Below, one piece after another: positions 3,297-20,022 of a stretch of 20,934 nucleotides of DNA. The notes beneath the pieces were generated by a model. The model did no database searches. It saw nothing but the letters and a program-made list of their open reading frames with translations, and was not told where the DNA came from. This DNA comes from a virus. Every line of letters begins with the position of its first letter. The stretch's first letter is position 1. Both the position numbers and the translations under genes were made by a program. Location: positions 1 through 20,934 of the IMG/VR virus record IMGVR_UViG_3300033388_003432, one strand, 5' to 3'.

Positions 3297-3334
3297 GGCC
3301 CCACTGCGTAATGCGGTGGGGCCTTTTTTGTTTT
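3297..3334 (+). terminator. Strong intrinsic-terminator hairpin abutting the portal start
   Basis: GGCCCCACTGC (3297-3307) pairs with GCGGTGGGGCC (3313-3323) around GTAAT, with one T-G pair. Six T's, a G and four more T's follow (3324-3334). It is a textbook rho-independent terminator, but the T-tract ends one base before the portal ATG. It may end the upstream transcript, act as a gate needing antitermination, or structure the portal leader. Confidence 0.8.
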
Positions 3335-5551
3335 ATGAAGAAACCCGGAACACTGGTACGGTTGAGAGAGACGCTAGAATTTTATAGACACGGTTATAAA
3401 CCGGCTCCCTTTACACCAAGTACGAAGGAAGCCCCGTTCATCTGGCCTGCTTGGCGTCGAGAAACCCCACAGTGGCAAATCGTGAACTATGATGCCTATG
3501 TCAACGAGGGCTTTAATCTCAACTCTGTAGTGTACAGTGCAATTATGTACAAAGTACGGGCAATTATGCAAGCTCCCCTTCGTGCCTACAGTGGAGAACC
3601 CGATAACCCGGAACCAGTAAACAAGAATTCGCCACTTGCTCAACTCGTATTTCGACCCAATCCACAGACGTCGTTTATGGCGATGCAAAGTGCAAATGTG
3701 GTGTCCCTTAACATTCACGGTAATGCCTATATTTTCCTAGACCGACCTGGCTTAGATCAATTTCCCACTGCGATGTATACGTTGAGGCCGGATAGGGTTT
3801 ACATTATACCTAATAGAGATCGGGGTGTAATGGGTTATCTGTACGTACCAGAAGGAAAGGGTATAGGCGACGGAGAACCTATTTTACCCCAGGATATGAT
3901 ACATATTAAGTTTCCCAATCCTGGTGATCCTCTCGAAGGCTTGGGGTATGGGTTAAGCCCTATGTCGTCGATGGCTCGCGTTGTAGACGTAGATAATGCC
4001 ATTACTCATTTTCTCAAACTATTTTTTGATAAAGGGGTAATGGTTCCCGGTATATTGAGTTCGGACCAGAAACTTACCCCAGCCATACTGTCGCGTATAC
4101 GTGAGAGATGGAAAGAAATTTATGGGGGCTATCGTCAATGGGCAGAGGAAATAGGGGTACTAGAAGCTGGAACTACTTACCAACGAGTGGGTCTCACATT
4201 TGACGAGATGGGTTTTGACGGGTTGGATGAAAGAAATGAAAGTAGAATATTAGGCCCGTTTGGTGTAGCCCCGATACTCACTGGTACAAGAGTTGGGTTG
4301 AAACACGCCACTTATTCTAATTACGAACAAGCCAGACAAGCTACGTGGGAAGATACACTTGTACCAGAATTAAAATTATTTGAAACTGAGTACCAATATG
4401 CCTTGCAGTACGAAAATGAGTGGGTAGCATTTGACGTCAGTAGAGTGCCTGCCCTTATTGAAGCATCTAAACAGAAACGCGAGGAAGCTCAGACTGCTTT
4501 TGATGGTTCAGCTATAACCAGAAATGAGTACCGTGTTACATTGGGGTATCCTAGTATAGATGGGGGAGACGTATACAAAGTTTCGTTTAACACTTTATTT
4601 ATACCGTCCGATGTTTCTCAAGTAGATGATACACCTGCCCCGGTAGAGGCTGTAGACGACACTAGAGATAAAGAGTACAAAGCACTGGACAAAGAACACC
4701 GTGAGGTATTTTATAAAGCGTTCGACGCCCAGGCTGTATCTTGGGAGGAACGATTTGGAGACACGGCCAACGCGGCTTTTGAATATGACTTACGTAACAT
4801 ACTCGCAATAATTAGCGACGCGAAAGCTAAAGCACTCGAAAGAAAAGCTACCCCAAATTGGGCAGAAACTCAAAATGATATAGTTGAGTACCTTCGTAAC
4901 AACGGAACCGATAATTGGAGAGAGGAGTTCCTGCCAGTTATGTCGGGACTCATATTGGAGAGAGGAGATTTTCTTAATGTCCAGTTTGGTATGCAGTTTG
5001 ACGTTAATAATTTACTAGCCGAAGAATGGTTTGATCTTTATACAATACAATTTGCTCAAATTATAACAGAGTCAACCGAACAAACTATTAGAGCAATGCT
5101 CCAACAAGGTATGAACGAGGGTTGGAGTATTGAGCAAATGTCTAATCGTATGGAGGCTATGTTTACCCAATGGATGACGGGTAACCTCAGTTCAAGCGAT
5201 TTTGAGTGGTTTGCACAAAGAATGCCCCCTTGGCGTCGTGAGTTGATTTCTCGAACAGAAACCATATCCGCTTCAAATAAGGGATCATTAGAATTGTATA
5301 GAGCGTGGGGAACAAAATTGAAGGAGTGGTTAGCCACACCCGATGAGCGAGTAAGAACTTTTGAAAATAGTCCTTGGGGGCATCTTGAATCCGATGGAGA
5401 GACTGTTTTAATAGATAAGCCATTTGTTAATACTAGTGAATCTTTAATGTACCCAGGTGATAAAGATGGGTCTCCTGGAAATACGATAAATTGTAGATGT
5501 ACTATTGTTCCAGTATTTGAAAATATACTTCAGCCGGAATTGTCTATATAA
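3335..5551 (+). CDS. Portal protein fused to MuF-like head morphogenesis domain, 738 aa
   Basis: The portal ring is the DNA gateway at one capsid vertex; MuF (SPP1 gp7 family) proteins are minor head proteins. The N-terminal two-thirds (about nt 3490-4440) reads as an HK97-type portal, with segments such as FNLNSVVYSAIMYKV and GLGYGLSPMSSMARVVD. The C-terminal part (about residues 638-735) has the MuF pattern: SRTETISASNKGSLELY, then KEWLATPDERVRT, then PGD and NCRCT. Start ATG 3335 is chosen because the longer frame starts inside the terminator loop. No normally spaced SD precedes it. The tail, PVFENILQPELSI, overlaps the antisense endonuclease stop by 22 bases, and a second version of the tail lies at 6377-6421. 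Confidence 0.88.
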   Translation: MKKPGTLVRLRETLEFYRHGYKPAPFTPSTKEAPFIWPAWRRETPQWQIVNYDAYVNEGFNLNSVVYSAIMYKVRAIMQAPLRAYSGEPDNPEPVNKNSPLAQLVFRPNPQTSFMAMQSANVVSLNIHGNAYIFLDRPGLDQFPTAMYTLRPDRVYIIPNRDRGVMGYLYVPEGKGIGDGEPILPQDMIHIKFPNPGDPLEGLGYGLSPMSSMARVVDVDNAITHFLKLFFDKGVMVPGILSSDQKLTPAILSRIRERWKEIYGGYRQWAEEIGVLEAGTTYQRVGLTFDEMGFDGLDERNESRILGPFGVAPILTGTRVGLKHATYSNYEQARQATWEDTLVPELKLFETEYQYALQYENEWVAFDVSRVPALIEASKQKREEAQTAFDGSAITRNEYRVTLGYPSIDGGDVYKVSFNTLFIPSDVSQVDDTPAPVEAVDDTRDKEYKALDKEHREVFYKAFDAQAVSWEERFGDTANAAFEYDLRNILAIISDAKAKALERKATPNWAETQNDIVEYLRNNGTDNWREEFLPVMSGLILERGDFLNVQFGMQFDVNNLLAEEWFDLYTIQFAQIITESTEQTIRAMLQQGMNEGWSIEQMSNRMEAMFTQWMTGNLSSSDFEWFAQRMPPWRRELISRTETISASNKGSLELYRAWGTKLKEWLATPDERVRTFENSPWGHLESDGETVLIDKPFVNTSESLMYPGDKDGSPGNTINCRCTIVPVFENILQPELSI
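5489..5521 (+). repeat. Left copy of the MuF C-terminal motif (NCRCT..PVFE)
   Basis: These bases encode NCRCTIVPVFE. The same motif, NCRCTVLPVFE, is encoded at 6377-6409 on the other side of the endonuclease. The protein motif is shared but third codon positions differ widely, so this is not a recent direct repeat. Confidence 0.75.
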
Positions 5552-6264
5552 TGAAGAACTTTATCAATACATTGAGAAGGAGAAAGCCTAATAGTAGACC
5601 CAGAAAACCTAAATACAGTCCATTTGTGCGATTCGAGCCATCTAGTTTTATTAGCATCTTTCACTTTTTGTTTTTCAGAGCTATGCCAATAATCGCCATC
5701 GGCTTCTATAGCAATCCTGTGTTCGGGTATAGTTATATCAATAAGCCATACAGCAATTTTATGTTGAAAACGATATTTTACATTTCTGTGGGTAAGTTCA
5801 TCCATAAGCAATTGTTCGATAGATGTAGGGCCATTTTTATGGGCAAGTGTAAAAGCTACGTGACTGCCAACACAACGTTTGGAACAAAAATGAGAAGTGT
5901 CGATGCAAGACAATTTTACCCACATTGTGTTTCCACAGAATTTACAAGACTTTTGAACTCTTTTCCAGAGTGGGTGGGCAGGACCATATACACGACGTTT
6001 TGATTCGTGGGCGCAGGAGCGAGAGCAGTATTTGGCACTATCTTTTCTATTGGGGGATACTTTAAATGGCTGATTGCATATTTTACATATTATACTAATT
6101 TTTTGTTTTTTATTCCAGGGTTTGATACCTGTTTTATCGAACACTGGTATACCTTTTTTAGATTTCCAGTAACAAGAATGAGAACAATATTTAGCTTTTT
6201 GTGCTCTATATGGTTCAACAATAAATTTTGTTCCGCAAATTAGACAATATTTTATAATAGACAT
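5530..6264 (-). CDS. Free-standing homing endonuclease, three zinc fingers plus Vsr/DUF559-like nuclease, 244 aa
   Basis: Probably a selfish endonuclease that cuts related genomes lacking it. The N-terminal half has three equal CxxC-x16-CxxxC units: C7/C10/C27/C31, C60/C63/C80/C84 and C107/C110/C127/C131. The C-terminal half (about 147-240) matches the Vsr-like/DUF559 fold: TSIEQLLMDELTHR, then LIDITI (D176), IEADGDYWH (E187, D189, H194), and WTVFRFSG. ATG 6264 is preferred over an in-frame TTG at 6270 because GGGAGG lies ten bases before it. It has its own promoter at 6287-6314. It is antisense to the head operon and overlaps the portal-MuF stop tail to tail. Confidence 0.85.
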   Translation of the reverse strand: MSIIKYCLICGTKFIVEPYRAQKAKYCSHSCYWKSKKGIPVFDKTGIKPWNKKQKISIICKICNQPFKVSPNRKDSAKYCSRSCAHESKRRVYGPAHPLWKRVQKSCKFCGNTMWVKLSCIDTSHFCSKRCVGSHVAFTLAHKNGPTSIEQLLMDELTHRNVKYRFQHKIAVWLIDITIPEHRIAIEADGDYWHSSEKQKVKDANKTRWLESHKWTVFRFSGSTIRLSPSQCIDKVLHYIDNSG

Positions 6265-6286
6265 ATTCAATATACCTCCCTACAAT

Positions 6287-6314
6287 AGTATACCATAAAA
6301 GAGTACTTTGTAAA
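6287..6314 (-). promoter_or_regulatory. Promoter of the homing-endonuclease gene
   Basis: On the minus strand, TTTACA (6314-6309) and TATACT (6292-6287) are 16 bases apart, close to the sigma-70 consensus. The SD (GGGAGG) and ATG of the endonuclease follow directly. It gives the gene expression independent of the opposing head operon. Confidence 0.6.
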
Positions 6315-6328
6315 GTGAGGGACACATT

Positions 6329-6421
6329 ATGAAAAACTATAAATACAAATCAAGATTCTTGATAGAAGAAGTGGCTAATTGTCGTTGCACAGTATTGCCG
6401 GTATTTGAGGGGAAATTATGA
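6329..6421 (+). pseudogene. Displaced original 3' end of the portal-MuF gene, now a 30-aa mini-ORF
   Basis: The frame ends EEVANCRCTVLPVFEGKL, matching the conserved MuF end NCRCTIVPVFE at 5489-5521. Its stop TGA (6419-6421) overlaps the ATG of the next gene by ATGA, the normal join between head genes here. The likely original MuF sequence starts near 6366; the earlier bases belong to the insertion or are worn. ATG 6329 has a GTGAGGG SD, so it may still be translated as a short peptide that passes ribosomes to the next gene. A genuine small gene is less likely. Confidence 0.75.
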
Positions 6422-6657
6422 CGCGTAACGTCAACCTAATCATATCAGAAATAACTCCAACCGGCCAGACTGTAAACGTCGATCAATACGAGATCGAGTT
6501 GACGGCGCAATGGACAGGCGCGGACGGGCAGTCGCGCGAACGCACCGAGACGGTGAGGTTCCCGAATATCCTGGCGCAAGTTCCTGGTACGTGGCTGAAA
6601 GAGGAGTTGACGGATTTGCTCATTCGAGCCGCACGTAAAAAGTGGGAGATTGACTGA
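6418..6657 (+). CDS. Small hypothetical structural-operon protein, 79 aa
   Basis: ATG overlaps the stop of the MuF remnant (ATGA), with GAGGGG shortly before. The product (MTRNVNLIISEITPTGQTV) is predicted mainly beta (YEIELTAQWTGADG; TETVRFPNI), then a helix (LKEELTDLLIRAARKKWEID). The size and position after portal suggest a small virion or adaptor protein, but no family is recognised. G+C is high (37 of 60 at 6481-6540), marking the left end of the GC-rich module. It overlaps the next gene (TGATG). Confidence 0.75.
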   Translation: MTRNVNLIISEITPTGQTVNVDQYEIELTAQWTGADGQSRERTETVRFPNILAQVPGTWLKEELTDLLIRAARKKWEID

Positions 6658-8066
6658 TGGCGACGCGATATTGCGGCATCGGTGGCAACGACGGCAATAC
6701 CGGCTTGAGTTGGGCACAACGAAAACTCACACTTGGCGGCGTCGAGGACACTCCCGTCGTAGCGGACGATGTATGCTATATCGGCCCTGGCGTATACCGC
6801 GAACTGCTAATCTGTGACGTTTCAGGCAACGCTGGCAACCCGATCACCTACATTGCCGACGACACTGGCGAGAACACAGACGGCGTGGGCGGTGTCGTCC
6901 GCATCACCGGTAGCGACAACGACCAGACCGAAACACGCGCCAATTGCATCACGGCGAACGGTATTGATTATCGCACGTTTCGCGGATTTGTGTTTGACAC
7001 CACATCGGGCATTGAGGTCAATGTCGTCGGTTCTCCTGAAAATTGGATTGTCGAGGATTGCGAGTTCCAACCCTCCGCCTCCGCCGCACTGCTCAAATTT
7101 ATAGGCGACACACAAACGACGTGCATCGTTCGCCGGTGCAAATTCTATTCGTCTGGCGGCTCGTCAACGTATGCCATAGAGTTTGAAAGCGCCGCCGGGT
7201 TGGGAGACGCCGACCACCTCGTAGCAAATTGTATATTTGAGACGGGCGGCTCTCGTGGCGTGAATATTGACGATGTGGGCGGTATTGATTTTATTCAATG
7301 TACGTTTGCTGGCTGTGACACGGGCATCAGAATCACGGACGCATTGCCGGGCGGCCATACCGTTTGCAACGTCTACGACTCCATTTTTGTCGGATGCGTG
7401 ACTGCTATGCAATCGGTCAACCTGGGTGAACTGGTAGAAAATTTCAACACGTTTTACCGCAACAACACAGCCCGTACGAACGTCAACGTCGGCGCAAACT
7501 CGCAGACATACCCGCCCCTGTTCGTCTCGCAAATCCTGAATGCGGGGGCCGGATTGGTGAGCGGTTTCAAATTCCCATACCAGCACGGGGCTTTGTCTGA
7601 ATGGTCGCAGGTTGCAGCCATCACAGGGACGAACGAGCAATCGACTGATCTGCACGCCAAACGACGCCCCGCAACGGCGAGCAAAAACAGTTGGGGGGCA
7701 GTACAGCGTACAGATATGGAAGTGGAGACGGGAACCGTACAGGCCGGGACGTATGCCAGGGTGCTGCACGACGCGGGTAGTGTTTTGGTGCGGCGCATCC
7801 CGGTGACCGGTGTGGAAATCACCGTTACATTGTACGTGAGGCGTGAGGCAAACTATGCCGGGAACCTGCCGCGAATGATTATCAAACAGCCTGGCGCAGC
7901 CGACCAGATAACAACGTCAGTTGCAGCGGTGAACACCTGGGAGCAATTGAGCGATACATTCACACCGAACGCGCTCCCCGGCTATGTCGAGGTGTGGGCG
8001 CAGAGCCGCAACACGGCGGCAGCGGGAAACTATGAAACGTTCTACGATACAATGGATACGAGCTAA
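6657..8066 (+). CDS. Right-handed beta-helix virion protein, tailspike- or fibre-like, 469 aa
   Basis: The N-terminal two-thirds reads as a parallel beta-helix of the pectate-lyase or PbH1 kind: repeated short strands with N/D/G turns and a recurring C-x-F pattern (VEDCEFQPS, VRRCKFYSS, VANCIFETGG, FIQCTFAGC, YDSIFVGC). The opening (YCGIGGNDGNTGLSWAQ) with PGVYRELL is common in such proteins. The last about 110 residues (VRRIPVTGVEITVTLYVRR and on to YVEVWAQSRN) look like a beta-sandwich, perhaps carbohydrate-binding. Catalytic residues cannot be named. Likely role: surface adhesion or glycan binding or cleavage. It overlaps neighbours by TGATG and TAATG. Confidence 0.8.
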   Translation: MATRYCGIGGNDGNTGLSWAQRKLTLGGVEDTPVVADDVCYIGPGVYRELLICDVSGNAGNPITYIADDTGENTDGVGGVVRITGSDNDQTETRANCITANGIDYRTFRGFVFDTTSGIEVNVVGSPENWIVEDCEFQPSASAALLKFIGDTQTTCIVRRCKFYSSGGSSTYAIEFESAAGLGDADHLVANCIFETGGSRGVNIDDVGGIDFIQCTFAGCDTGIRITDALPGGHTVCNVYDSIFVGCVTAMQSVNLGELVENFNTFYRNNTARTNVNVGANSQTYPPLFVSQILNAGAGLVSGFKFPYQHGALSEWSQVAAITGTNEQSTDLHAKRRPATASKNSWGAVQRTDMEVETGTVQAGTYARVLHDAGSVLVRRIPVTGVEITVTLYVRREANYAGNLPRMIIKQPGAADQITTSVAAVNTWEQLSDTFTPNALPGYVEVWAQSRNTAAAGNYETFYDTMDTS

Positions 8067-8296
8067 TGGCAGACAGCGATACAAACGATTTTGAGCAATT
8101 TATCGCCGCCGACATTGACTTCACGACGGGCACACCGCCAATTGGCAACAGTGGCGATATGGAGCAGTTCATCACGGCAGATATTGACCTGGCCGAGTTT
8201 GCAAAGGCGGCAGCCCCGCCAGCGGGCGCAATTATGAATCAAATACAATTCTCAAATTTTGGGGCCGACCTCTATAACGGGGCTTTAATTCTATGA
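8066..8296 (+). CDS. Small acidic protein with internal repeat, 76 aa
   Basis: Contains two copies of one motif, DFEQFIAADIDF (about residues 8-19) and DMEQFITADIDL (about 31-42), then an alanine/proline-rich link and a hydrophobic end. It could be a small adaptor or capping protein between the beta-helix protein and the fibre. It is joined to both neighbours by overlapping stop/start codons. No family recognised. Confidence 0.7.
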   Translation: MADSDTNDFEQFIAADIDFTTGTPPIGNSGDMEQFITADIDLAEFAKAAAPPAGAIMNQIQFSNFGADLYNGALIL

Positions 8297-10182
8297 GTAT
8301 ACACCGGCACGCGACAATCGAGGACACCGTATATTTTTGGTTCGGCTCGAACGATACGAGCGGTTCGGGCGACGATGGCGCAGCACCAGCGGCGGACGTG
8401 AGGCTCGCGGGCGCGGCGGCTGGCGCAATTCCAACTCTAAGCCCAGTTCCGGCTCTGCTAACACACGCAAACTATCCGCCTGGCTGCTACGAGGTAGCTG
8501 TGGCGGCGACGGTTGTGAACGGATTCGCGGCGACGGATACCTACGCAGTATTTTGTACGCTTGCCGTGGATGGCCAAAATCCTACTGGGTTCGTGGGTTC
8601 ATTTACTCTTGACCCGATCATTGCCAACGTCAAAGAGATTAGTGATGACGCCACAGCAGCCGATAACCTTGAACTAGATTATGATGGTACTGGGTACACT
8701 AAAGCTAATAGTACTATAGGAACTACAACGACTAATACTGATATGGTAGGCACAGATGGGGCATTACTTGCGGCTAATGTCAACGTGGCAGCGGGGATAG
8801 TTGAGAGTAATTTAATTCAAATGAGAGGAGTAGCTCAGAGTGCAATTGATTTGACCGATTTTGCCGACGCTGGATACGACCCAGGTACAAACAAAGTCCA
8901 AGGGGTTGTATTAACAGATACAACTACCAATGTGACAAACCAAGTGACTGCTGATGTAACCGCTATTTCTGGAGACGCCGCTGCTGCTAATAATGCCGAG
9001 TCATTTTTTGACGGGACAGGATATGCGGGTACAAATAATGTCATACCGACTGTTACAGATGTGACTAATAGAGTAACAGCAAACACCGATCAAATTGAAG
9101 GAGCAGATGCTACAGATCAAATACGTGATTCTGTGGTGGACGACGCTACTCGTATAGACGGTTCGGCTTTAAATACTCTGAGCGGACACGACCCCGGTAG
9201 CACAATTTGTGCCGATTCTACTCCACTCACAGCAGTAGAGACTGAAAGCGAAGTCAACGATGCTTTGGTAGCTTTAAGGCTCGACCATCTTGTAGCGGTA
9301 GCCGATGCTAATGATCCTGTTGACAATTCTATTATGGCTAAAATAGCCGCAAGCGATGGGGATTGGAGTGGGTTTGTTCCCGCAGACGATGCGTTAGAAG
9401 CTATTAGGGATAGAGGAGACACGGCTTGGGGCACAGGGGCAGCAGCGCCTACAGCAGCGGCAATAGTGGACGAGTGGGAAACACAGTCGCAAGCCGATCC
9501 TACCGGGTTTCACGTAAACGTGTTAGAGGTTGGGGGAACAAACCAAACAGCTAACGATAATGGAGCGGATATTAATACACTTATAAGTAGAGTAACAGCG
9601 GCGGTTGCTCTGGCTTCAATTTGTACAGAGGTAAGGCTTGCCGAATTAGATGCTGGTAATTTACCGACAGACATTGCGGATATACCTACTGTAGCAGAAT
9701 TTAATGCCCGTACAATATTAGCAGCAAATTATGCTTTAGCCGCTACCGCTCTCAGTACTGCCCAGTGGACAAATGCACGCGCTGGGTATCTTGATGAACT
9801 AGCAGCGGCAAATTTGCCAACCGATATTACAAATGTATTAGCAAGATTACCCGCTGCATTGATAGGAGGAAGGATAGACGCTATAGTGGGAGCTTTAGCA
9901 GCGAATGTTATTACAGCAGCAGGCATTGCGGCGGACGCTATAACATCTAGCGAATTAGCACAAAGTGCGGCTATTGAAATTGCTGACGAAACTCTCAAGA
10001 GAGGAGTATCAAACGTTGAGGACTCTGCTGATACTACCAGTCTAACAGCTATAGTTTTGGCAATATTGGAATCGGGAATTGTGGGTACAACATGGACTAT
10101 AAGAAAAACTGATGGAACGAACTTTGTGGTTAAAACTGCTACAGTTGACGCCACTGCTGATCCTATAACGGCGGTGACATGA
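8293..10182 (+). CDS. Long fibre-like structural protein, 629 aa, compositionally chimeric
   Basis: Begins with a compact beta domain (residues about 5-110, VYFWFGSNDTSGSGDDGAA and CYEVAVAATVVNG), similar in style to N-terminal anchoring domains of fibres. The rest is low-complexity, rich in A, D, T and N, with repeated units: DATAADNLELDYDGTGY and DAAAANNAESFFDGTGY, and two LPTDI stretches near the end. It ends in a small beta domain (WTIRKTDGTNFVVKTATVDA). Such sequences form trimeric fibres. Codon use switches from GC-rich to AT-rich around codon 110-130, so the gene looks like a fusion of two sources. Confidence 0.78.
   Translation: MSIHRHATIEDTVYFWFGSNDTSGSGDDGAAPAADVRLAGAAAGAIPTLSPVPALLTHANYPPGCYEVAVAATVVNGFAATDTYAVFCTLAVDGQNPTGFVGSFTLDPIIANVKEISDDATAADNLELDYDGTGYTKANSTIGTTTTNTDMVGTDGALLAANVNVAAGIVESNLIQMRGVAQSAIDLTDFADAGYDPGTNKVQGVVLTDTTTNVTNQVTADVTAISGDAAAANNAESFFDGTGYAGTNNVIPTVTDVTNRVTANTDQIEGADATDQIRDSVVDDATRIDGSALNTLSGHDPGSTICADSTPLTAVETESEVNDALVALRLDHLVAVADANDPVDNSIMAKIAASDGDWSGFVPADDALEAIRDRGDTAWGTGAAAPTAAAIVDEWETQSQADPTGFHVNVLEVGGTNQTANDNGADINTLISRVTAAVALASICTEVRLAELDAGNLPTDIADIPTVAEFNARTILAANYALAATALSTAQWTNARAGYLDELAAANLPTDITNVLARLPAALIGGRIDAIVGALAANVITAAGIAADAITSSELAQSAAIEIADETLKRGVSNVEDSADTTSLTAIVLAILESGIVGTTWTIRKTDGTNFVVKTATVDATADPITAVT
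8644..9028 (+). repeat. Repeated fibre motif (DAxAAxNxExxxDGTGY)
   Basis: Two copies, encoded about 8647-8697 and 8974-9024, share the pattern D-A-x-A-A-x-N-x-E, then D-G-T-G-Y. This shows that the fibre shaft arose by duplication of a unit of about 110 codons. Boundaries are approximate. Confidence 0.55.
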
Positions 10183-10367
10183 CAATTAGAAGTATTTTTC
10201 GGTGGGTAAAATGGTTAGCATCGTCTACTTTTGTACCAGCTACGTGTAAAGGTAATGTCTATGCTAGCATTATTCCTACAGGTAATCTTTATAAAGCAAC
10301 TCCTGCGGGAAGTCTGTGGGCGAGTTTAACACCAACCGGCGAGGTATATGCGGATGAGCTTGGCTAA
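10179..10367 (+). CDS. Small repeat protein, 62 aa
   Basis: After a basic start (MTIRSIFRWVKWLASS) come short beta-hairpin-like repeats: GNVYASIIPTGNLYKATPAG, then SLWASLTPTGEVYA, with PTG turns spaced about 13-26 residues apart. Probably a small accessory of the fibre. ATGA overlap with the fibre gene. The next gene starts inside its 3' end. Function unknown. Confidence 0.65.
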   Translation: MTIRSIFRWVKWLASSTFVPATCKGNVYASIIPTGNLYKATPAGSLWASLTPTGEVYADELG

Positions 10368-10665
10368 TATTGTATCGGGAGATTATGGTCAGGTTATTCA
10401 ACTCACTGTATTAGATACCGACACTGGCGGGGCGGGAGATGTGAGTGGGTACGCAACGTCTCAATCTATGGTATTTAGAGACCCAGATGGTAATGAAGAA
10501 ACAAAGGTAGCTACATTTGTTACTGACGGGTCGGATGGATTAGTAAAATATACTCTTGTCGATGGAGACATAGATGAGAGAGGAAATTGGAATGTGCGTG
10601 TAATTTTAACTAGTGCCACAGCATTATTGACGTCTACGTGGCTTGAATTTTTAGTGTTACCGTAG
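10354..10665 (+). CDS. BppU-like N-terminal beta-domain protein, 103 aa
   Basis: Reads like the immunoglobulin-like N-terminal domain of baseplate upper proteins: GDYGQVIQLTVLDTDTG at the start, then DVSGY, SMVFRDPDGNEE, a DGLVKYTLVDGDIDERGNW strand-turn segment, and a closing TWLEFLVLP strand. Proteins with this domain hold receptor-binding proteins at the tail tip. ATG 10354 is preferred to ATG 10348 because GAGGT at 10341-10345 is then 8 bases away rather than 2. It lies in the fibre module, just before the protease. Confidence 0.65.
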   Translation: MSLANIVSGDYGQVIQLTVLDTDTGGAGDVSGYATSQSMVFRDPDGNEETKVATFVTDGSDGLVKYTLVDGDIDERGNWNVRVILTSATALLTSTWLEFLVLP

Positions 10666-14187: not shown

Positions 14188-14778
14188 ATGATAGTATATG
14201 TAGCTTACGGTAAAAAGGCAATAAACGAAGTATCGCTCAGTATTAAATCATTAAATGGGCGATACTCTATAACAGTTATATGTCAAGAACCTTTGGGTAT
14301 ACCTGGTATAAATTATGTAATATTTGACGATAAAAGTTACGGGGCAAGATGGGCTAAACTAAATATCGACAAATTAGTCGACGACGAAATAATAGGATAC
14401 TTGGACGCAGATACGAGGATACACGGAAACATAGAACCAGCATTTGAAATGGTAGAAGCAGGATGGGATATGGCTATGTCATATAGTATAAATCAAGGAA
14501 GCGATGTTCTAAAACACATAGGCGAAAAAGAACGGGAAGCAACCCTGACTCATAACCCATTTCCGCTACAATTTCAATGCGGTGTTATGTTTTTTCATAG
14601 AGATAGATGTGGAGAGTTTTTCGAACGTTGGAGACACGAGTGGACCAGGTATAAAGAAAAAGACCAAGGCGCTTTTATACGTGCTTTAACAGAGTGTCCG
14701 CTTAGAATTGCGTTATTGGGTAGGCCGTGGAATGGAGGAAACATAGTGGAACATTTGTTTGGAAGGGCGCATGGCTAA
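14188..14778 (+). CDS. GT-A-type glycosyltransferase, 196 aa
   Basis: Transfers a sugar from a nucleotide-sugar donor, by fold likeness to GT8-like enzymes. It starts MIVYVAYGKKAI, has the metal/donor DXD motif in YLDADTRIHG (D73, D75), the CGVMFFHRD segment (131-139), and DQGAFIRAL (159-167), followed by PLRIALLGRPWN (171-182). ATG 14188 lies only five bases after the 15-bp hairpin and has no SD. The closest relative in the window is the C-terminal half of the protein at 15367-17007. It is first in the eight-gene sugar/methyl cassette; acceptor unknown. Confidence 0.82.
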   Translation: MIVYVAYGKKAINEVSLSIKSLNGRYSITVICQEPLGIPGINYVIFDDKSYGARWAKLNIDKLVDDEIIGYLDADTRIHGNIEPAFEMVEAGWDMAMSYSINQGSDVLKHIGEKEREATLTHNPFPLQFQCGVMFFHRDRCGEFFERWRHEWTRYKEKDQGAFIRALTECPLRIALLGRPWNGGNIVEHLFGRAHG

Positions 14779-15370
14779 AATATGGGTAAGAGCCTTGACA
14801 ACTATATTTGTAGAAGAGCGTGGTATGATGCAAATGAAACCAAGGGGCGCTTGGGTTGAAGTGGGTAAACATCAAGCTCGTCAAATGCAGGCTACTGGTC
14901 AATGCGATATACCTAATATAAAGGCTCGTGAACAACTCATAACCGACGAATGTGGAATAGTTACACAAGGGTCTTTTACTTATAACGATATTAAAGTGGT
15001 CGAGGGTGGTTTAACATTGCCATTTGAAAAAACCTTTTTATATAACCAGGAAATATCGTTTAACAGCAATCTAATCCCAATAGGGTTTTCACTATTAGAC
15101 AAATGGGAAATAGCTGTACCAATAGCGGACTATGATGTGTTGGCTAGAGATGTAGGCACAGAAGAAGATAGAGCAAAAACGTTGGAAATAACCGGAGATT
15201 TGCGAATACCTGTGTATGAGCCGGGGATTATGTTTGTGCGTAAAACACAAAGTACTGAAAAATTGCTCGAAGTATTCAAACAAGAAGAAGGGCATAAAGG
15301 CCTCGCATTTATACGAGCATTGTACCAGGTAAAACCGTATATACTAGCATTGCCGACGGTGTGGCTATGA
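14771..15370 (+). CDS. GT-A-like protein that lacks the DXD motif, 199 aa
   Basis: N-terminal about 55 residues (MKPRGAWVEVGKHQARQMQA, CDIPN) look like a separate small domain. From about residue 77 the order of motifs follows the GT-A enzymes beside it: PFEKTFLYNQEISFN (84-98) occupies the place of the usual PFEKTLYLDADT, but the DXD is NQE. Then come FSLLDKWEIAVPIADYDVL (matching FEMVEAGWDMAM...DVL of the previous gene), PGIMFV (matching CGVMFF), and KGLAFIRALYQV (matching DQGAFIRAL). Probably an inactive, perhaps regulatory or sugar-binding, paralogue. ATG 14771 follows GGAAGG. ATGA overlap with the next gene. Confidence 0.65.
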   Translation: MAKIWVRALTTIFVEERGMMQMKPRGAWVEVGKHQARQMQATGQCDIPNIKAREQLITDECGIVTQGSFTYNDIKVVEGGLTLPFEKTFLYNQEISFNSNLIPIGFSLLDKWEIAVPIADYDVLARDVGTEEDRAKTLEITGDLRIPVYEPGIMFVRKTQSTEKLLEVFKQEEGHKGLAFIRALYQVKPYILALPTVWL

Positions 15371-17007
15371 TACATATTGTTTGCCAACGATTAGATAAAG
15401 ACAGAGTGTTACCGAGATTGGCTAGGTCTCTTGCCGAATCGACGGGATGGAGTATAAGTGAGGGCCCAGTACCAGGAGTAAAACTTAACTATTTTTTCCC
15501 ATATCTCGAACTACAGAAAAGGGAATGGGAAGATACTCTCTCTGCTGCGTGGTTTACCCATAAAGACACAGCAGAACCACGAAAAGAGGCGGTGTGGAAT
15601 AGTGTGGCCAAACGAGTTAATCTCAGAACACTAACAGCCGGAATTTATAAAAAAGATTTAGAACAGTATGGCGATGTTCGTATGGTACGTCCTATTGTAG
15701 AGCTAGATAGATTTGTACCTATTAAAAGGAAACGAGAAAATACTATAGGTGTATCCGGTTGGTTATATCGCGACAATAGAAAAGGCGAGGATTTAATAAC
15801 CAGGGCGTCAAGAGAAATCGAAGGAGATTGGAAAGCTAGTGGAAGAGGTTGGTCGATTCCTACTAAATGTTATCTGTGGAAAGATTTACCCAAGTTTTTC
15901 CAATCGCTTGATTTGTTCGTTTGTGCCAGTCGTATTGAGGGTGTACCAATGCCCCCACTTGAGGCTTTAGCTTGTGGTATACCAGTGGTTATCCCAAGGG
16001 GGGTGGGGCTATTAGATGATCTACCTAATATACCGGGTATAACTAGATTTATGGCCGGGAATTATAAAGATTTACGTGCGGCAATAAAAAACGCATTAAC
16101 TGCTGAGTACAACAAAGAAGAATTGAGAAACTCTGTTTTACAATATAATGAAAAGAACTGGGCTAACGATCATAAACTAGCTTTTGATAACCTGGTACAT
16201 AGTACGAAACCATATATACAGCCGGGTAGAGGCAAACAAGGAATGTATTGTGTGGCGTTTGGCGAACCGTCGCGTAAATGCGCCACACGGTTAGTAAAAT
16301 CATTTAAGAAATATATGCCCAATACGCCTGTTATGTTTGTAGGAACTAAACCTCTCAACGTAGGAGAGGATTTATTCATAAAACAGGACGATAAAGACAT
16401 TGGAGGGCGCTTAGGTAAATTATCGGTAGACAGATTGGTCCCTAAAGATTGGGAATACATTTTATATCTTGATGCGGATACAGAGTTAATAGAACCAGTT
16501 GATTTTATATTTAACACTTTACGTAAAGGTTGGGAATTTGTTATATGTAAAGATATGCACGACCGTCATTGGCTCAAAACTATGAGGCGAGGAGATAACA
16601 ATGATGAGTGCGATTATACAGAAAAACTAGTAGGAACCGATAGAGTAATGCAATACAATGGGGGTGTGTTCGCTTATCGAAGAACCATAGGTACAAAACG
16701 GTTTTTCGAGTTGTGGAATACTGAGTATCAAAAATGGCTAGGCAGAGATCAAGGGGCGCTTATTAGAGCATTACACACTCAGCCATTGAGAATGCTTGTG
16801 TTGGGTAACCAGTGGAATGCGAGCGACCGGTATGATTTGCCGCCAGGCCCTATCGCAATTATGCACCATAATGTACAGGCAAGGCGCTGGTCGAGATCAA
16901 TACAAGGTAGAATAGATAGCAAAGACGCTTGGAATGCTGTGGAGGAATGGGAACGTGTCAATTCTCAACTTGGGAGCAGGAACCCGTTTAGTGCCGGGGG
17001 CCGTTAA
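15367..17007 (+). CDS. Two-domain glycosyltransferase, GT4-like plus GT-A, 546 aa
   Basis: Residues 1-270: GT-B (GT4-type) half, with a Rossmann-like SLDLFVCASR, then EGVPMPPLEALACGIPVVIP (191-210), the donor-binding signature of family 4, and GVGLLDDL. Residues about 285-540: a GT-A domain like the protein at 14188, with LYLDADTELIEP (366-377), GGVFAYRR, DQGALIRAL (461-469), LGNQWNAS, and HHNVQARRW near the end. ATG 15367 (ATGA overlap with the upstream gene) is preferred to GTG 15361. One chain probably adds two different sugars in turn. Its last 53 bases overlap the next gene. Confidence 0.85.
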   Translation: MIHIVCQRLDKDRVLPRLARSLAESTGWSISEGPVPGVKLNYFFPYLELQKREWEDTLSAAWFTHKDTAEPRKEAVWNSVAKRVNLRTLTAGIYKKDLEQYGDVRMVRPIVELDRFVPIKRKRENTIGVSGWLYRDNRKGEDLITRASREIEGDWKASGRGWSIPTKCYLWKDLPKFFQSLDLFVCASRIEGVPMPPLEALACGIPVVIPRGVGLLDDLPNIPGITRFMAGNYKDLRAAIKNALTAEYNKEELRNSVLQYNEKNWANDHKLAFDNLVHSTKPYIQPGRGKQGMYCVAFGEPSRKCATRLVKSFKKYMPNTPVMFVGTKPLNVGEDLFIKQDDKDIGGRLGKLSVDRLVPKDWEYILYLDADTELIEPVDFIFNTLRKGWEFVICKDMHDRHWLKTMRRGDNNDECDYTEKLVGTDRVMQYNGGVFAYRRTIGTKRFFELWNTEYQKWLGRDQGALIRALHTQPLRMLVLGNQWNASDRYDLPPGPIAIMHHNVQARRWSRSIQGRIDSKDAWNAVEEWERVNSQLGSRNPFSAGGR

Positions 17008-17395
17008 TCACGATCTTACAAAACATAGTCCCGATATACACGTAACGTGGGATTTGAATAAAACACCTTGGCCCTGGAAAGATAATGAGTTTGACCAGGT
17101 ACAATTGATAAGTGTAGCGGAGCATTTGAAACTAACACTCATCGAGACACTAAATGAATGTCATCGTATAACAAAAGGCGTTTTAATAATAAAATTCCCT
17201 CTGTGGAATGGGGTTAATACTCACAAAGACCCGACGCATAGGTGGTTTTGGGACTTGGGCGTTTTAGATTATGTAGATCAAACAACGAGGGCAGGACAAG
17301 TTTATTATTATTATACTCCTCTCAAGTGGAAAATTAAAGCAAGAGGGGTAATCAAAAATAGAAATGTCAAAGCGGAGCTAGCGCCAGTTAAATGA
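16955..17395 (+). CDS. SAM-dependent methyltransferase-like protein, 146 aa
   Basis: Class I methyltransferase pattern: LNLGAGT (residues 4-10, motif I), a DLTKHSPDIH strand, DLNKTPWPWKDNEFDQV (motif IV region), HL, and a KDPTHRWFW element of a common small-methyltransferase family. It is short, but the SAM-binding part looks intact. Start: GTG 16955 has GGAGG at 16941-16945 with 9-base spacing. The longer ATG 16934 would lie before that SD. It begins within the preceding glycosyltransferase gene and overlaps the next gene (ATGA). It may methylate a sugar made by the cassette (inference). Confidence 0.72.
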   Translation: MSILNLGAGTRLVPGAVNHDLTKHSPDIHVTWDLNKTPWPWKDNEFDQVQLISVAEHLKLTLIETLNECHRITKGVLIIKFPLWNGVNTHKDPTHRWFWDLGVLDYVDQTTRAGQVYYYYTPLKWKIKARGVIKNRNVKAELAPVK

Positions 17396-17955
17396 AAAGC
17401 AACGAGATAACAAAACAAGCACATAAAACTTTACTTGAGAGTAAATTAGACGCATCTTGGGAACGCTATTTTGCTGGATGGGTCGATGTTGTTGATAGGT
17501 ACAATGTTACCTCTGTTTTAGTGCAGGGGCAAAAAGTGCTCGATATTGGTTGCGGAGAAGGCCTACTTGGGTTTTTACTGAAGGGCAAATATGTTATCGG
17601 CATAGATGCTTGTGAAAGTATAATCGTTTTAGGAAAAAGCCGCCCGGCGCATATTGCTGATTTACGGGTTATGGACGCTGAAAATTTAACTTTTGAAAAC
17701 GGCGAATTTGATACTGTGGTACTGGGACAGGTATTGGAACATGTGGTGGATGTAGACAAAACAATTCAAGAGGCGTTGAGAGTATTAAAACCAGGGGGGC
17801 GGTTAATTGTCAATGTGCCTTGTGATGACGCAGAACCACGCGGTAACCATTTGCACGTATTCGAGAGCTTACAAGAACTGTTAGAATTATTTCCTGTAAA
17901 ATGGGAAGGAAAGGGAATATTACATAGGTTCTATTTTGCCTGGGGTATTAAATGA
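17392..17955 (+). CDS. SAM-dependent methyltransferase, 187 aa
   Basis: Clear class I methyltransferase: VLDIGCGEGLLG (49-60, motif I), GIDACES (motif II), DAENLTFENGEFDTVVLGQV (motif IV), LEHVVDV, and LRVLKPGGRLIVNVP (motifs V-VI). Such proteins commonly methylate sugars or small molecules; the substrate cannot be read from sequence. ATGA overlaps on both sides place it within the glycan cassette. AT-rich composition agrees with its neighbours. Confidence 0.88.
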   Translation: MKSNEITKQAHKTLLESKLDASWERYFAGWVDVVDRYNVTSVLVQGQKVLDIGCGEGLLGFLLKGKYVIGIDACESIIVLGKSRPAHIADLRVMDAENLTFENGEFDTVVLGQVLEHVVDVDKTIQEALRVLKPGGRLIVNVPCDDAEPRGNHLHVFESLQELLELFPVKWEGKGILHRFYFAWGIK

Positions 17956-18869
17956 TTTCGATATTGGTACATGGGCCCGACTTTGCGAGTAGTGAGAACC
18001 TCACTAAAGCATTGTCTCTGTGGGGTACTACTCAACTCATTTGCATAAATAAAAGCGACTGGCGAGAATACGACGAGGGACTGGTATACAGTGAAGAAAC
18101 TAAAGACGAAATACACGATGTACTCGATAGGAGCCATACTTTGTTTCTGGGGGATGCTACGTCTGTACATAGTTTGGCCAAAATATCGCCATCTTCAAAT
18201 TGGATAAGCTGGGCGTCAACGAAACGAGTTATACCATATTTTGGAGACAGTGCATATTTCAAACACCCTCAATTTTACAATGGGCTTGTCAACGCATTGG
18301 GGGCTAAGACTTTATTTTTGCTACCTAACCTAATCCCGCTTAATAAAAATGCTGTACCATTACATCACCCAATGCCAGTTCAGTGGGTAGATAAAAACGA
18401 GGACTTAACTATAGTACACGCCCCAGGTAGAGACGGGAAGGCGGCACAAAAGGGAACGGAAACAATCGAAATAGCTATAACAGAATTAGAAAACGATTTT
18501 GAATTTGAATATAAAAGGCTTATGCATCTTACTATTGATGAGTGCCTTAACGTTAAGAATTCGGCTCATATAGTTATTGACCAATTACCGCCAGATGGGG
18601 TTCCTTATGGTATAGGACGCACTGGTACAGAGGCTTTGGCAGTAGGTTCGGCGGTGGTTACTCGTTTATACGACACAGGTGTACTAGATGGGTTTTTCGA
18701 GAAACCGCCTGTTATTGACGTGCAATCAGAAGAACAATTGATTTTAGAACTTGGTAAATTATTAGAAGATAAGGATAAGCTATTTAAGATACAAAAAGAA
18801 TCGTTATCTTGGGCTGCGGAAAACATAGATTATCCCCAGTGGTTAAAATACATAGAAAGGTATATATGA
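17952..18869 (+). CDS. GT-B-type glycosyltransferase, 305 aa
   Basis: The protein starts MISILVHGPDF and has two Rossmann-like halves. The second holds LTIVHAPGRDGKAAQKGTE (the inter-domain strand and loop), MHLTIDECL, then a stretch typical of GT4/CgeB-type enzymes: AHIVIDQL, GIGRTGTEALAVGSAVV (about residues 221-237), donor-site glycine and glutamate included. Length is on the short side for a GT-B enzyme, but both halves seem present. No signal peptide, so it probably acts in the cytoplasm. ATGA overlaps on both sides. Acceptor unknown. Confidence 0.72.
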   Translation: MISILVHGPDFASSENLTKALSLWGTTQLICINKSDWREYDEGLVYSEETKDEIHDVLDRSHTLFLGDATSVHSLAKISPSSNWISWASTKRVIPYFGDSAYFKHPQFYNGLVNALGAKTLFLLPNLIPLNKNAVPLHHPMPVQWVDKNEDLTIVHAPGRDGKAAQKGTETIEIAITELENDFEFEYKRLMHLTIDECLNVKNSAHIVIDQLPPDGVPYGIGRTGTEALAVGSAVVTRLYDTGVLDGFFEKPPVIDVQSEEQLILELGKLLEDKDKLFKIQKESLSWAAENIDYPQWLKYIERYI

Positions 18870-19453
18870 AATTACACGGAGCACCAAACTATCTAATAGA
18901 AAAAATACTCACTCTTGATTCTGGTAGAGCCTTGTCCACATCCGCAAATATAAAAGGGCAGTTGTTAGGTTATCAAGCGGCTGCTTTATTTGAATTAGCT
19001 AAAAAATACGACGGTAAACCTATACTAGAGATAGGTACATTTGTGGGGTATTCCACGTCTATACTAGCTCAGGCGTGCCCTAATTCGCATATAATAACAT
19101 TAAACAACGCCAAAAATGAAATACAGGATGCTCGAAAGAATTTAGCAAAATATAGTAATGCGACTGTATTATGCACAACGTCGTGGGATTATTTAGATAT
19201 AAGTCCTTTTGATTTGGGTTTTATTTTTGTGGATGGCGACCACGTTCGTGTAGGAAAAGATTTACCTTGGTGGAATAAATTATCTGTAGGCGGGTTGATG
19301 TTATTTCACGATTACTCAATAAATGAAATATATGTCAACCTCGCAGTAGACACTATGGGGTTAAAATTCGGTAGAGAACCCGATGTGTCGATTATAGATA
19401 CAGACAAAATAGGAATGGCCGGGTTTTATAAACAGGATACAGACATATTATGA
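18866..19453 (+). CDS. SAM-dependent methyltransferase (Methyltransf_24-like), 195 aa
   Basis: Motif I is ILEIGTFVGYST (53-64), followed by SHIITLN, then DLGFIFVDGDHVRVGKDL (about 116-133), and GGLMLFHDY (142-150). The FVDGDH and FHDY pair marks the Methyltransf_24/CmcI-like family, which includes sugar O-methyltransferases. ATG 18866 is chosen for its ATGA overlap with the upstream stop; the frame is open further up but within the previous gene. The next gene is a clear paralogue. Confidence 0.83.
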   Translation: MKLHGAPNYLIEKILTLDSGRALSTSANIKGQLLGYQAAALFELAKKYDGKPILEIGTFVGYSTSILAQACPNSHIITLNNAKNEIQDARKNLAKYSNATVLCTTSWDYLDISPFDLGFIFVDGDHVRVGKDLPWWNKLSVGGLMLFHDYSINEIYVNLAVDTMGLKFGREPDVSIIDTDKIGMAGFYKQDTDIL

Positions 19454-20022
19454 TTTCTCGACAAGACGCCGTACAAACAGGAATAGAATTTAATAGTAAT
19501 CTCTATGATAAAAACCGCGACGATTCTACTCAATTGGGGTTTTTATATGATCTTGCTATTAAAGCGCCCGATGGCATTGCGGTAGAATGTGGGGTAAAAG
19601 CTGGTGGCAGTTTGGTCACATGGGGATTAACCCGTATAGGTAGAGGCCCAATTATAGCAGTTGATAGTCGACGTACACAAGATTATAGTTTTTCTCTCAT
19701 TGCTAAACTAGCGGGGCAGGGTGTAGATATAACACTGTTAGAAGTTTTAAGTTGGGATGCTCCTGATTTAATAGATGGACAAGTGGCGTTTTGTTTTATT
19801 GACGCCGATCACTCTCTGAGGGGTATTCCAAGAGACGTTACAGTATGGCCCGATAAAATGATGTCAGGAGGAATTTTAGTTTTTCACGATTACAATGTTC
19901 CTAATCAAGCCACTGTAGTCAAATGTGTTGTCGATGCGTGGCAAGCCGAGAATATATGGAGAAACGAGGGCTGGGAACATATTGGTACGGTAGGGAGTAC
20001 CATAGCATTTAAAAAACCATAA
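19450..20022 (+). CDS. SAM-dependent methyltransferase (Methyltransf_24-like), 190 aa
   Basis: Paralogue of the preceding gene by motif order: AVECGVKAGGSLVTWG (44-59, motif I), IIAVDSRR (motif II), AFCFIDADHSLRG (113-125), and GGILVFHDYNVP (140-151). The HDY and DADH positions match FVDGDH/FHDY of its neighbour. The two likely arose by tandem duplication and may methylate different positions of a sugar. It closes the cassette; a 9-base gap with AAGGAGGAA precedes the next structural gene. Confidence 0.8.
   Translation: MISRQDAVQTGIEFNSNLYDKNRDDSTQLGFLYDLAIKAPDGIAVECGVKAGGSLVTWGLTRIGRGPIIAVDSRRTQDYSFSLIAKLAGQGVDITLLEVLSWDAPDLIDGQVAFCFIDADHSLRGIPRDVTVWPDKMMSGGILVFHDYNVPNQATVVKCVVDAWQAENIWRNEGWEHIGTVGSTIAFKKP

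Follow-up and report, generated by a model that had tools for sequence, protein, structure and literature searches.

The 20,934-bp virus record IMGVR_UViG_3300033388_003432, analysed over its whole length and called the window below, contains a portal-MuF fusion gene whose 3' end is present in two different versions, one on each side of an antisense endonuclease gene. We consider it probable (about 0.72) that the window carries a free-standing homing endonuclease cassette of the EDxHD type, whose target is the MuF 3' end at its conserved NCxC codons and which comprises a substitute MuF end, the overlapping antisense endonuclease and a promoter of its own. The features of this region are given here by position in the window (ORF, open reading frame).

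3311 to 5551, plus strand: fused portal-MuF gene of 746 aa whose C-terminus is complete and looks functional (PF04860 at residues 72-411, 8e-53; PF04233 at 591-732, 9e-10)
5489 to 5551, plus strand: first (upstream) version of the MuF end, NCRCTIVPVFENILQPELSI, overlapped by the endonuclease ORF over the final 22 bp
5530 to 6264, minus strand: EDxHD/Vsr-like endonuclease with a Cys-rich (zinc-finger-like) N-terminal part (Pfam, 3r3p, AlphaFold, Foldseek); alternative start TTG at 6270
6275 to 6281, minus strand: Shine-Dalgarno-like AGGGAGG of the endonuclease, read from the sequence
6287 to 6314, minus strand: promoter-like TTTACA-16-TATACT with TG ahead of the second hexamer, a consensus match only
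6330 to 6421, plus strand: 30-codon ORF holding the putative displaced end, possibly a leader for translational coupling to the 6418 gene
6363 to 6421, plus strand: putative displaced MuF end, IEEVANCRCTVLPVFEGKL, with its stop in the ATGA overlap with the next gene and in the same frame (modulo 3) as the portal gene
6418 to 6657, plus strand: next gene, a 79-aa orphan at the start of a GC-rich block, no Pfam or PHROG match

The portal-MuF protein aligns over its full length with those of the loci L005, L002 and L003 (39-44%) and terminates in NTINCRCTIVPVFENILQPELSI. NCRCTIVPVFE is encoded at 5489-5521, from where the frame reads on to the stop codon at 5549-5551, and the antisense endonuclease ORF overlaps this 3' end, stop codon included, by 22 bp (5530-5551). 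Beyond the endonuclease, at about 6363-6421, lies a second MuF end, EEVANCRCTVLPVFEGKL, in which NCRCTVLPVFE is encoded at 6377-6409, followed by the end GKL and a stop codon (6419-6421) that shares ATGA with the ATG of the 6418 gene. Over the 11 codons, nine residues and 23 of 33 nucleotides are common to the two tails, four codons being identical, five synonymous and two changed conservatively; the stranded tail scores 60 against the upstream motif (BLOSUM62), whereas 2000 shuffles of the downstream 300 bp reached no more than 33. A reading of this DNA made earlier from its letters alone (the sequence-only reading) had described this, namely two flanking versions of the MuF end with a kept protein motif and differing codons and a downstream frame joined to the next gene by ATGA; the extent of that frame, given as 6329-6421, needs a small correction, as the ORF has its ATG at 6330 and is MuF-like only from about 6363. 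With the 30-residue ORF as query, tblastn gave weak head-morphogenesis/MuF matches in phiH and PhiCh1 (E 0.02 and 2) and in a Gordonia phage, all beginning at residue 12 (I12) of the ORF, which points to a MuF end with its left edge near 6363. The residues ahead of the relic (EEVAN) match the ordinary MuF of L005 (SEVANCRC).

The antisense ORF matches PF18741 (2e-12), PF04480 (9e-12) and, by profile, PDB 3r3p (E 2.3e-14). Its AlphaFold model is confident (pLDDT 86.7), and the top Foldseek match of the model is the catalytic domain of I-Bth0305I (3.9e-5, TM 0.74 by target length). The acidic and His residues E150, D176, E187, D189, H194 and D203, candidates for the active site, are invariant across ten relatives. 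By sequence and predicted fold, the enzyme is thus assigned to the EDxHD/Vsr-like family with a catalytic domain of the I-Bth0305I type. The ATG at 6264, preceded by AGGGAGG, is more likely to be its start than the TTG at 6270. Promoter-like consensus matches are present in the region at a number near the chance level; TATAAT-like boxes also precede the endonucleases of L005, L006, L073, L076, L089, L093 and L094. No group I or group II intron RNA was recognised around the endonuclease, the window having no Rfam match at gathering score, and an intron-borne endonuclease was rejected on this ground.

Related endonucleases recur at MuF 3' ends, which, together with the Pfam matches, bears out the earlier designation of the ORF as an endonuclease of the homing type. 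The loci of relatives were gathered with the endonuclease query alone and its alignment, and a MuF profile made for this analysis detected the adjoining MuF; as L073 and L076 initially came to light in a portal search, they are not independent evidence for the site. Endonuclease and MuF converge and overlap in L005 (44 bp), L006/L007 (29), L089 (40), L093 (15), L094 (12), L017 (22) and L018 (4). In L076 they converge at 446 bp, and in L073 the convergent endonuclease stands behind a small gene, MuF there being recognised by eye from its NCPHRW ending, while the two genes are co-directional in L008, L009 and L011-L013. At least eight convergent loci and several co-directional ones, in otherwise different genomes, have the endonuclease at one site, the MuF 3' end, as is expected of a homing gene. 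On a catalytic-domain tree built by a quick method, with most inner branches weakly supported, the MuF-associated labels cluster (8 changes versus 16.8 when shuffled, with 0 of 500 shuffles as low). Since convergent genes share their end DNA, those cassettes would include the last MuF codons by construction, and, judging from this layout, acquisition of an overlapping cassette necessarily brings in a MuF end. The searches beyond these loci gave no tblastn match of the window endonuclease in phage records, distant matches elsewhere with the L005 endonuclease (e.g., adjoining DNA methyltransferase genes) and 13 weak loci in a genome scan with the endonuclease alignment. L007 (also L084 and L091) is near-identical to L006, but an in-frame stop interrupts its endonuclease, and it is best read as a decaying cassette. 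A shared leader follows the TATAAT box ahead of the L005, L073, L076 and L011 endonucleases (GGGATAGG, stem, CCGAAAAG-like loop, stem, CCC); it has no Rfam match up to E 1.

From sequence comparison, the two-tail layout recurs independently in the unrelated phages L093 and L011-L013 (one sequence, three samples), one for each orientation of the endonuclease. L093, oriented like the window, has GCRCTAAPARLSRK upstream and NCECALAPARLPK downstream, the latter running by ATGA into the next gene, and L011-L013, with a co-directional endonuclease, have NPISHPNCTRSFTYNLKDDTDSQDEE and SPLEHPNCVRSFTYVLKDDSDGNEE; in each case 0 of 200 shuffles were as good. Two different end copies flanking an endonuclease, as expected under gene-end replacement, are found in the window, L093 and L011-L013; L009 has a fourth candidate relic (CRCPTMPLPAKNDER), of only marginal significance (P 0.035). 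For L093 the empty site is also available. The portal of L159, 78% identical to that of L093 and without an endonuclease, ends in CTCAIAPARLPK, and its tail runs via ATGA into a homologue (68%) of the L093 next gene; L161, L196, L231 and L232 have an empty site like that of L159. Among 48 distinct tails of the L093 family, 39 are closer to the relic and 5 to the upstream copy, so that, with the L159-type empty sites, the downstream tail of L093 is identified as the resident one. This relic opens with an intein C-terminus, SIVVKN, followed by CECALAPARLPK (20 of 21 nt as in L215), which suggests that the allele displaced by the L093 cassette had borne an intein; the displaced end with its intein C-terminus lies at about 4838-4908 on the flipped strand. 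The relic of L011-L013 is ordinary MuF sequence (SPLEHPNCVR), and the tails of L012 relatives decide neither copy as native.

The sequence-only reading had proposed that the element brought its own MuF end and displaced the resident one. Recurrent convergent overlap, the two-tail repeats and L093 support this, whereas in the window itself the tails of relatives do not decide which copy is resident, the relic being closer to 8 and the upstream copy to 4 of 16 tails of portal relatives. Likewise, the empty site that it predicted, a downstream-type tail joined to the next gene, is seen for L093 in the five genomes named above but not for the window. Endonuclease-free portal-MuF relatives of the window do exist; their MuF ends are of both styles, which does not refute the sequence-only reading, and none has the 6418 gene.

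Composition adds a further indication of a junction. The portal gene has a GC content at third codon positions (GC3) of about 0.38, falling to 0.17 over the final 46 codons (from 5411); the endonuclease has 0.26 and the 6418 gene 0.65. The low value at the portal end is suggestive of a possible converted tract. The sharp rise at 6418 from the portal and endonuclease side implies that the right-hand block has a different background, and suggests a recombination junction at or beside the stranded tail; the left side (portal and endonuclease) could equally be the import.

Several points weigh against the cassette interpretation. No endonuclease-free relative carrying the 6418 gene was found in viral_contigs or phages, and the window's own empty site was not seen; nor did the 16 relatives' tails provide a resident copy for the window. 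The GC3 drop at the portal end is based on 46 codons. The MuF-adjacent endonucleases do not form one clade on the tree, whose inner branches are mostly weak, and no second tail is present in L005, L006, L089, L094 and L017, so a stranded tail is not obligatory.

MuF genes are also interrupted by inteins that hold similar endonucleases. At the NCxC site, the inteins of L184, L187, L194, L201 and L215 have an antisense EDxHD-like frame of 222-298 codons and no stop on the intein strand, and both strands seem to be coding; in L187 and L194 the endonuclease assignment is by similarity to the frames of other inteins, with weak or no Pfam matches. At another MuF site (CxxC, VHNCxxC), the splicing blocks of the L016, L022, L031, L041 and L053 inteins enclose an antisense EDxHD/DUF559 endonuclease. 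The antisense EDxHD endonuclease occupies the usual place of the endonuclease domain in the MuF inteins, with both frames open.

L184, 2921 to 3658, minus strand: antisense frame in NCxC-site intein
L187, 2694 to 3416, minus strand: antisense frame in NCxC-site intein
L194, 8316 to 8984, minus strand: antisense frame in NCxC-site intein
L201, 8044 to 8799, minus strand: antisense frame in NCxC-site intein
L215, 2815 to 3711, minus strand: antisense frame in NCxC-site intein
L041, 2755 to 3774, plus strand: CxxC-site intein-borne feature
L016, 2764 to 3600, plus strand: CxxC-site intein-borne feature

The lack of TTA, CTA and TCA is unlikely to be due to chance in L187, L194, L201 and L215 (P 0.001 to <5e-5) and is weaker in L184 (P 0.018) and L041 (P 0.037); the GC-rich L022, L031 and L041 are uninformative alone because open antisense frames are common in GC-rich DNA. 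The window endonuclease (5533-6264, minus strand) has 2 such codons versus 11.2 expected (P 5e-5), leaving the opposite strand nearly stop-free, and the depletion is also found in L005, L073 and L076 but not in L006, L089, L094, L008, L009, L011, L017 and L018. Because the window portal gene is also mildly depleted (23 versus 34.8), part of the effect may be codon preference; other possible reasons are that the endonuclease once resided within an intein or that selection acts on a sense RNA translated across it. Opposite the endonuclease, a sense-strand open frame (5551 to 6003, plus strand), whose start overlaps the portal stop codon (TAATG), is possibly no gene.

The window could alternatively be a mosaic, with a likelihood that we take to be low though well short of negligible, if two lineages had recombined within the MuF end, the left contributing the portal and endonuclease and the right its own MuF end with the GC-rich 6418 block; the endonuclease would then sit at the boundary, or have caused the break, and no small cassette would have moved. 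The sharp GC change at 6418 fits such an event; so does the lack of a 6418-10665 region in most relatives, which have the protease nearer to MuF. Nuclease genes are reported at phage exchange boundaries (PMC10448857). However, L093 shares its next gene with endonuclease-free relatives, so only a short piece was exchanged rightward there, and its relic stands in the same ATGA layout as that of the window. Both this recombination and the insertion of a cassette turn on a break at the MuF end; they differ in the amount imported.

An intein or split-intein (fractured-gene) relic appears quite improbable. On this reading an intein, in or next to which the endonuclease lay, once interrupted MuF here; recombination later gave the left half a full end again, and the former C-extein stayed downstream. 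In its favour, the five NCxC-site inteins interrupt these very MuF codons and contain antisense EDxHD endonucleases, the L093 relic opens with an intein C-terminus, the strand opposite the window endonuclease is stop-depleted and EDxHD endonucleases reportedly accompany split inteins (Dassa 2009, cited in PMC12350094). Against it, the three plus frames of 5489-6421 hold no intein motif, the portal has no intein domain, and a split intein in the window was rejected on these grounds; moreover, the upstream gene is complete, the residues ahead of the window relic and the L011-L013 relic are those of ordinary MuF, and the L093 endonuclease and the intein-borne ones fall into different subgroups. 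That the short ORF at 6330-6421 is an independent small gene or a chance resemblance is extremely improbable, despite its own ATG and operon-style overlap with the next gene. The shuffle test and the matches to MuF C-termini led us to reject it; these C-termini are its only recognisable relatives, the matches begin only where the MuF-like part begins, and L093 and L011-L013 have the same layout. An independently conserved peptide, one of two outcomes that the sequence-only reading had named as speaking against it, was thus not encountered.

For the cassette reading, we infer the following course. The endonuclease would cut an endonuclease-free allele near the MuF NCxC codons, and repair would copy in the substitute end and the endonuclease, guided on the left by MuF homology. 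On the right, where there is little homology past the last codons, the junction would form at the break, and the last 14-20 codons of the recipient would remain as a stranded tail abutting the next gene, with the head gene kept functional by the substitute end. Recoding may protect the upstream copy from the enzyme. The position of the cut may be marked by the left edges of the three relics, roughly 15-30 bp ahead of the NC codons, and the stranded tail may persist since ATGA keeps the next gene translationally coupled. In the window, a right-hand-type phage may have received the cassette along with much of the left side, or left and right may have been joined at the break.

A broader scheme, which is speculative and which we hold to be improbable, would make MuF ends a shared landing site at which EDxHD endonucleases spare the host gene in two interchangeable ways, as an intein with an antisense endonuclease or as a new-end cassette. 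The window endonuclease would descend from the intein-nested antisense form, its lineage having moved from splicing to gene-end replacement, and this would explain the near stop-free opposite strand.

I-Bth0305I is intron-borne and resides in recA. The window enzyme resembles it in its catalytic domain, by sequence and predicted fold, and in having a tethered DNA-binding part; in contrast, the window enzyme is free-standing, has Cys-rich repeats and lies in no intron recognised in Rfam. The fractured genes reportedly described by Dassa in 2009 combine split inteins with free-standing EDxHD endonucleases. They share with the window the endonuclease family and its free-standing position amid a broken gene, but their halves are joined by protein splicing, whereas the upstream gene of the window is complete and no split intein was found there. 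EDxHD homing endonucleases, including I-Bth0305I (PDB 3r3p), are reviewed in PMC3943268. Free-standing homing endonucleases of the T5orf172 and IPA-HNH families occur at phage exchange boundaries (PMC10448857) and, as described in the relevant passages of that source, resemble the window in being selfish nucleases that adjoin essential phage genes and bias the inheritance of their flanks; they belong to other families, and those passages describe no duplicated gene end.

That gene-end replacement is known for other mobile elements, as the sequence-only reading had stated, is borne out by the mORFs of fungal mitochondria, where endonuclease ORFs come with duplicated gene ends in Allomyces macrogynus atp6 and in Glomus atp6, atp9, cox2 and nad3 (PMC3630166). 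There, a foreign C-terminal end is fused in frame and the native end is left downstream, the protein being kept while the codons differ (PMC3630166). By analogy, the likeness in how these elements would work is strong, a cassette supplying the gene end with the native end downstream, and we count this precedent, for which biochemical and reverse-transcription PCR support is cited in PMC3630166, as support for the mechanism. Comparison with relatives makes the downstream copy the native one in L093 (39 of 48 tails), compared with 8 versus 4 of 16 for the window. The fungal cases are mitochondrial genes with LAGLIDADG or GIY-YIG endonucleases, usually in the same orientation as the gene, whereas the phage cases concern the head gene MuF and an EDxHD endonuclease, mostly antisense and overlapping the last host-gene codons. 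Membership in the Allomyces/Glomus set cannot be claimed because endonuclease family, orientation and genome differ.

Other features were observed around MuF and in the window. In L063, near 5487, TGA replaces the second Cys codon of NCRC, the MuF end being open apart from this (a pseudogene, sequencing error or recoding). In L071 and L075 the portal domain is broken in frame by about 1 kb, the L075 insert having a weak zinc-finger-like match, and both insertions are probably inteins. Long C-terminal extensions past the NCxC motif occur in the MuF of L168, L223, L224, L227, L230, L233, L079 and L075. Between MuF and the prohead protease, the window has an orphan GC-rich block with a beta-helix protein (6418-10665), and relatives of the 6418 and 6657 genes were found neither in viral_contigs nor in phages; the MuF-to-protease interval varies in relatives too (e.g., L059, L060, L063). 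At 14188-20022, a run of genes judged by sequence to be glycosyltransferase- and methyltransferase-like lies inside the structural region.

Partly narrow searches of the open-access literature found no description of a gene-end-replacing endonuclease in phages or in MuF, and as far as searched, gene-end replacement is new for phages and for the EDxHD family. Besides introns and inteins, the replacement end would give homing endonucleases a third means of occupying a conserved site of an essential phage gene, and the layout suggests how a selfish gene can settle in such a gene without splicing itself out. The MuF NCxC codons are predicted to be the target, and a recoded copy in the same genome would be protected. 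MuF C-termini may therefore be chimeric, and a short ORF downstream of such a gene may be a cast-off gene end.

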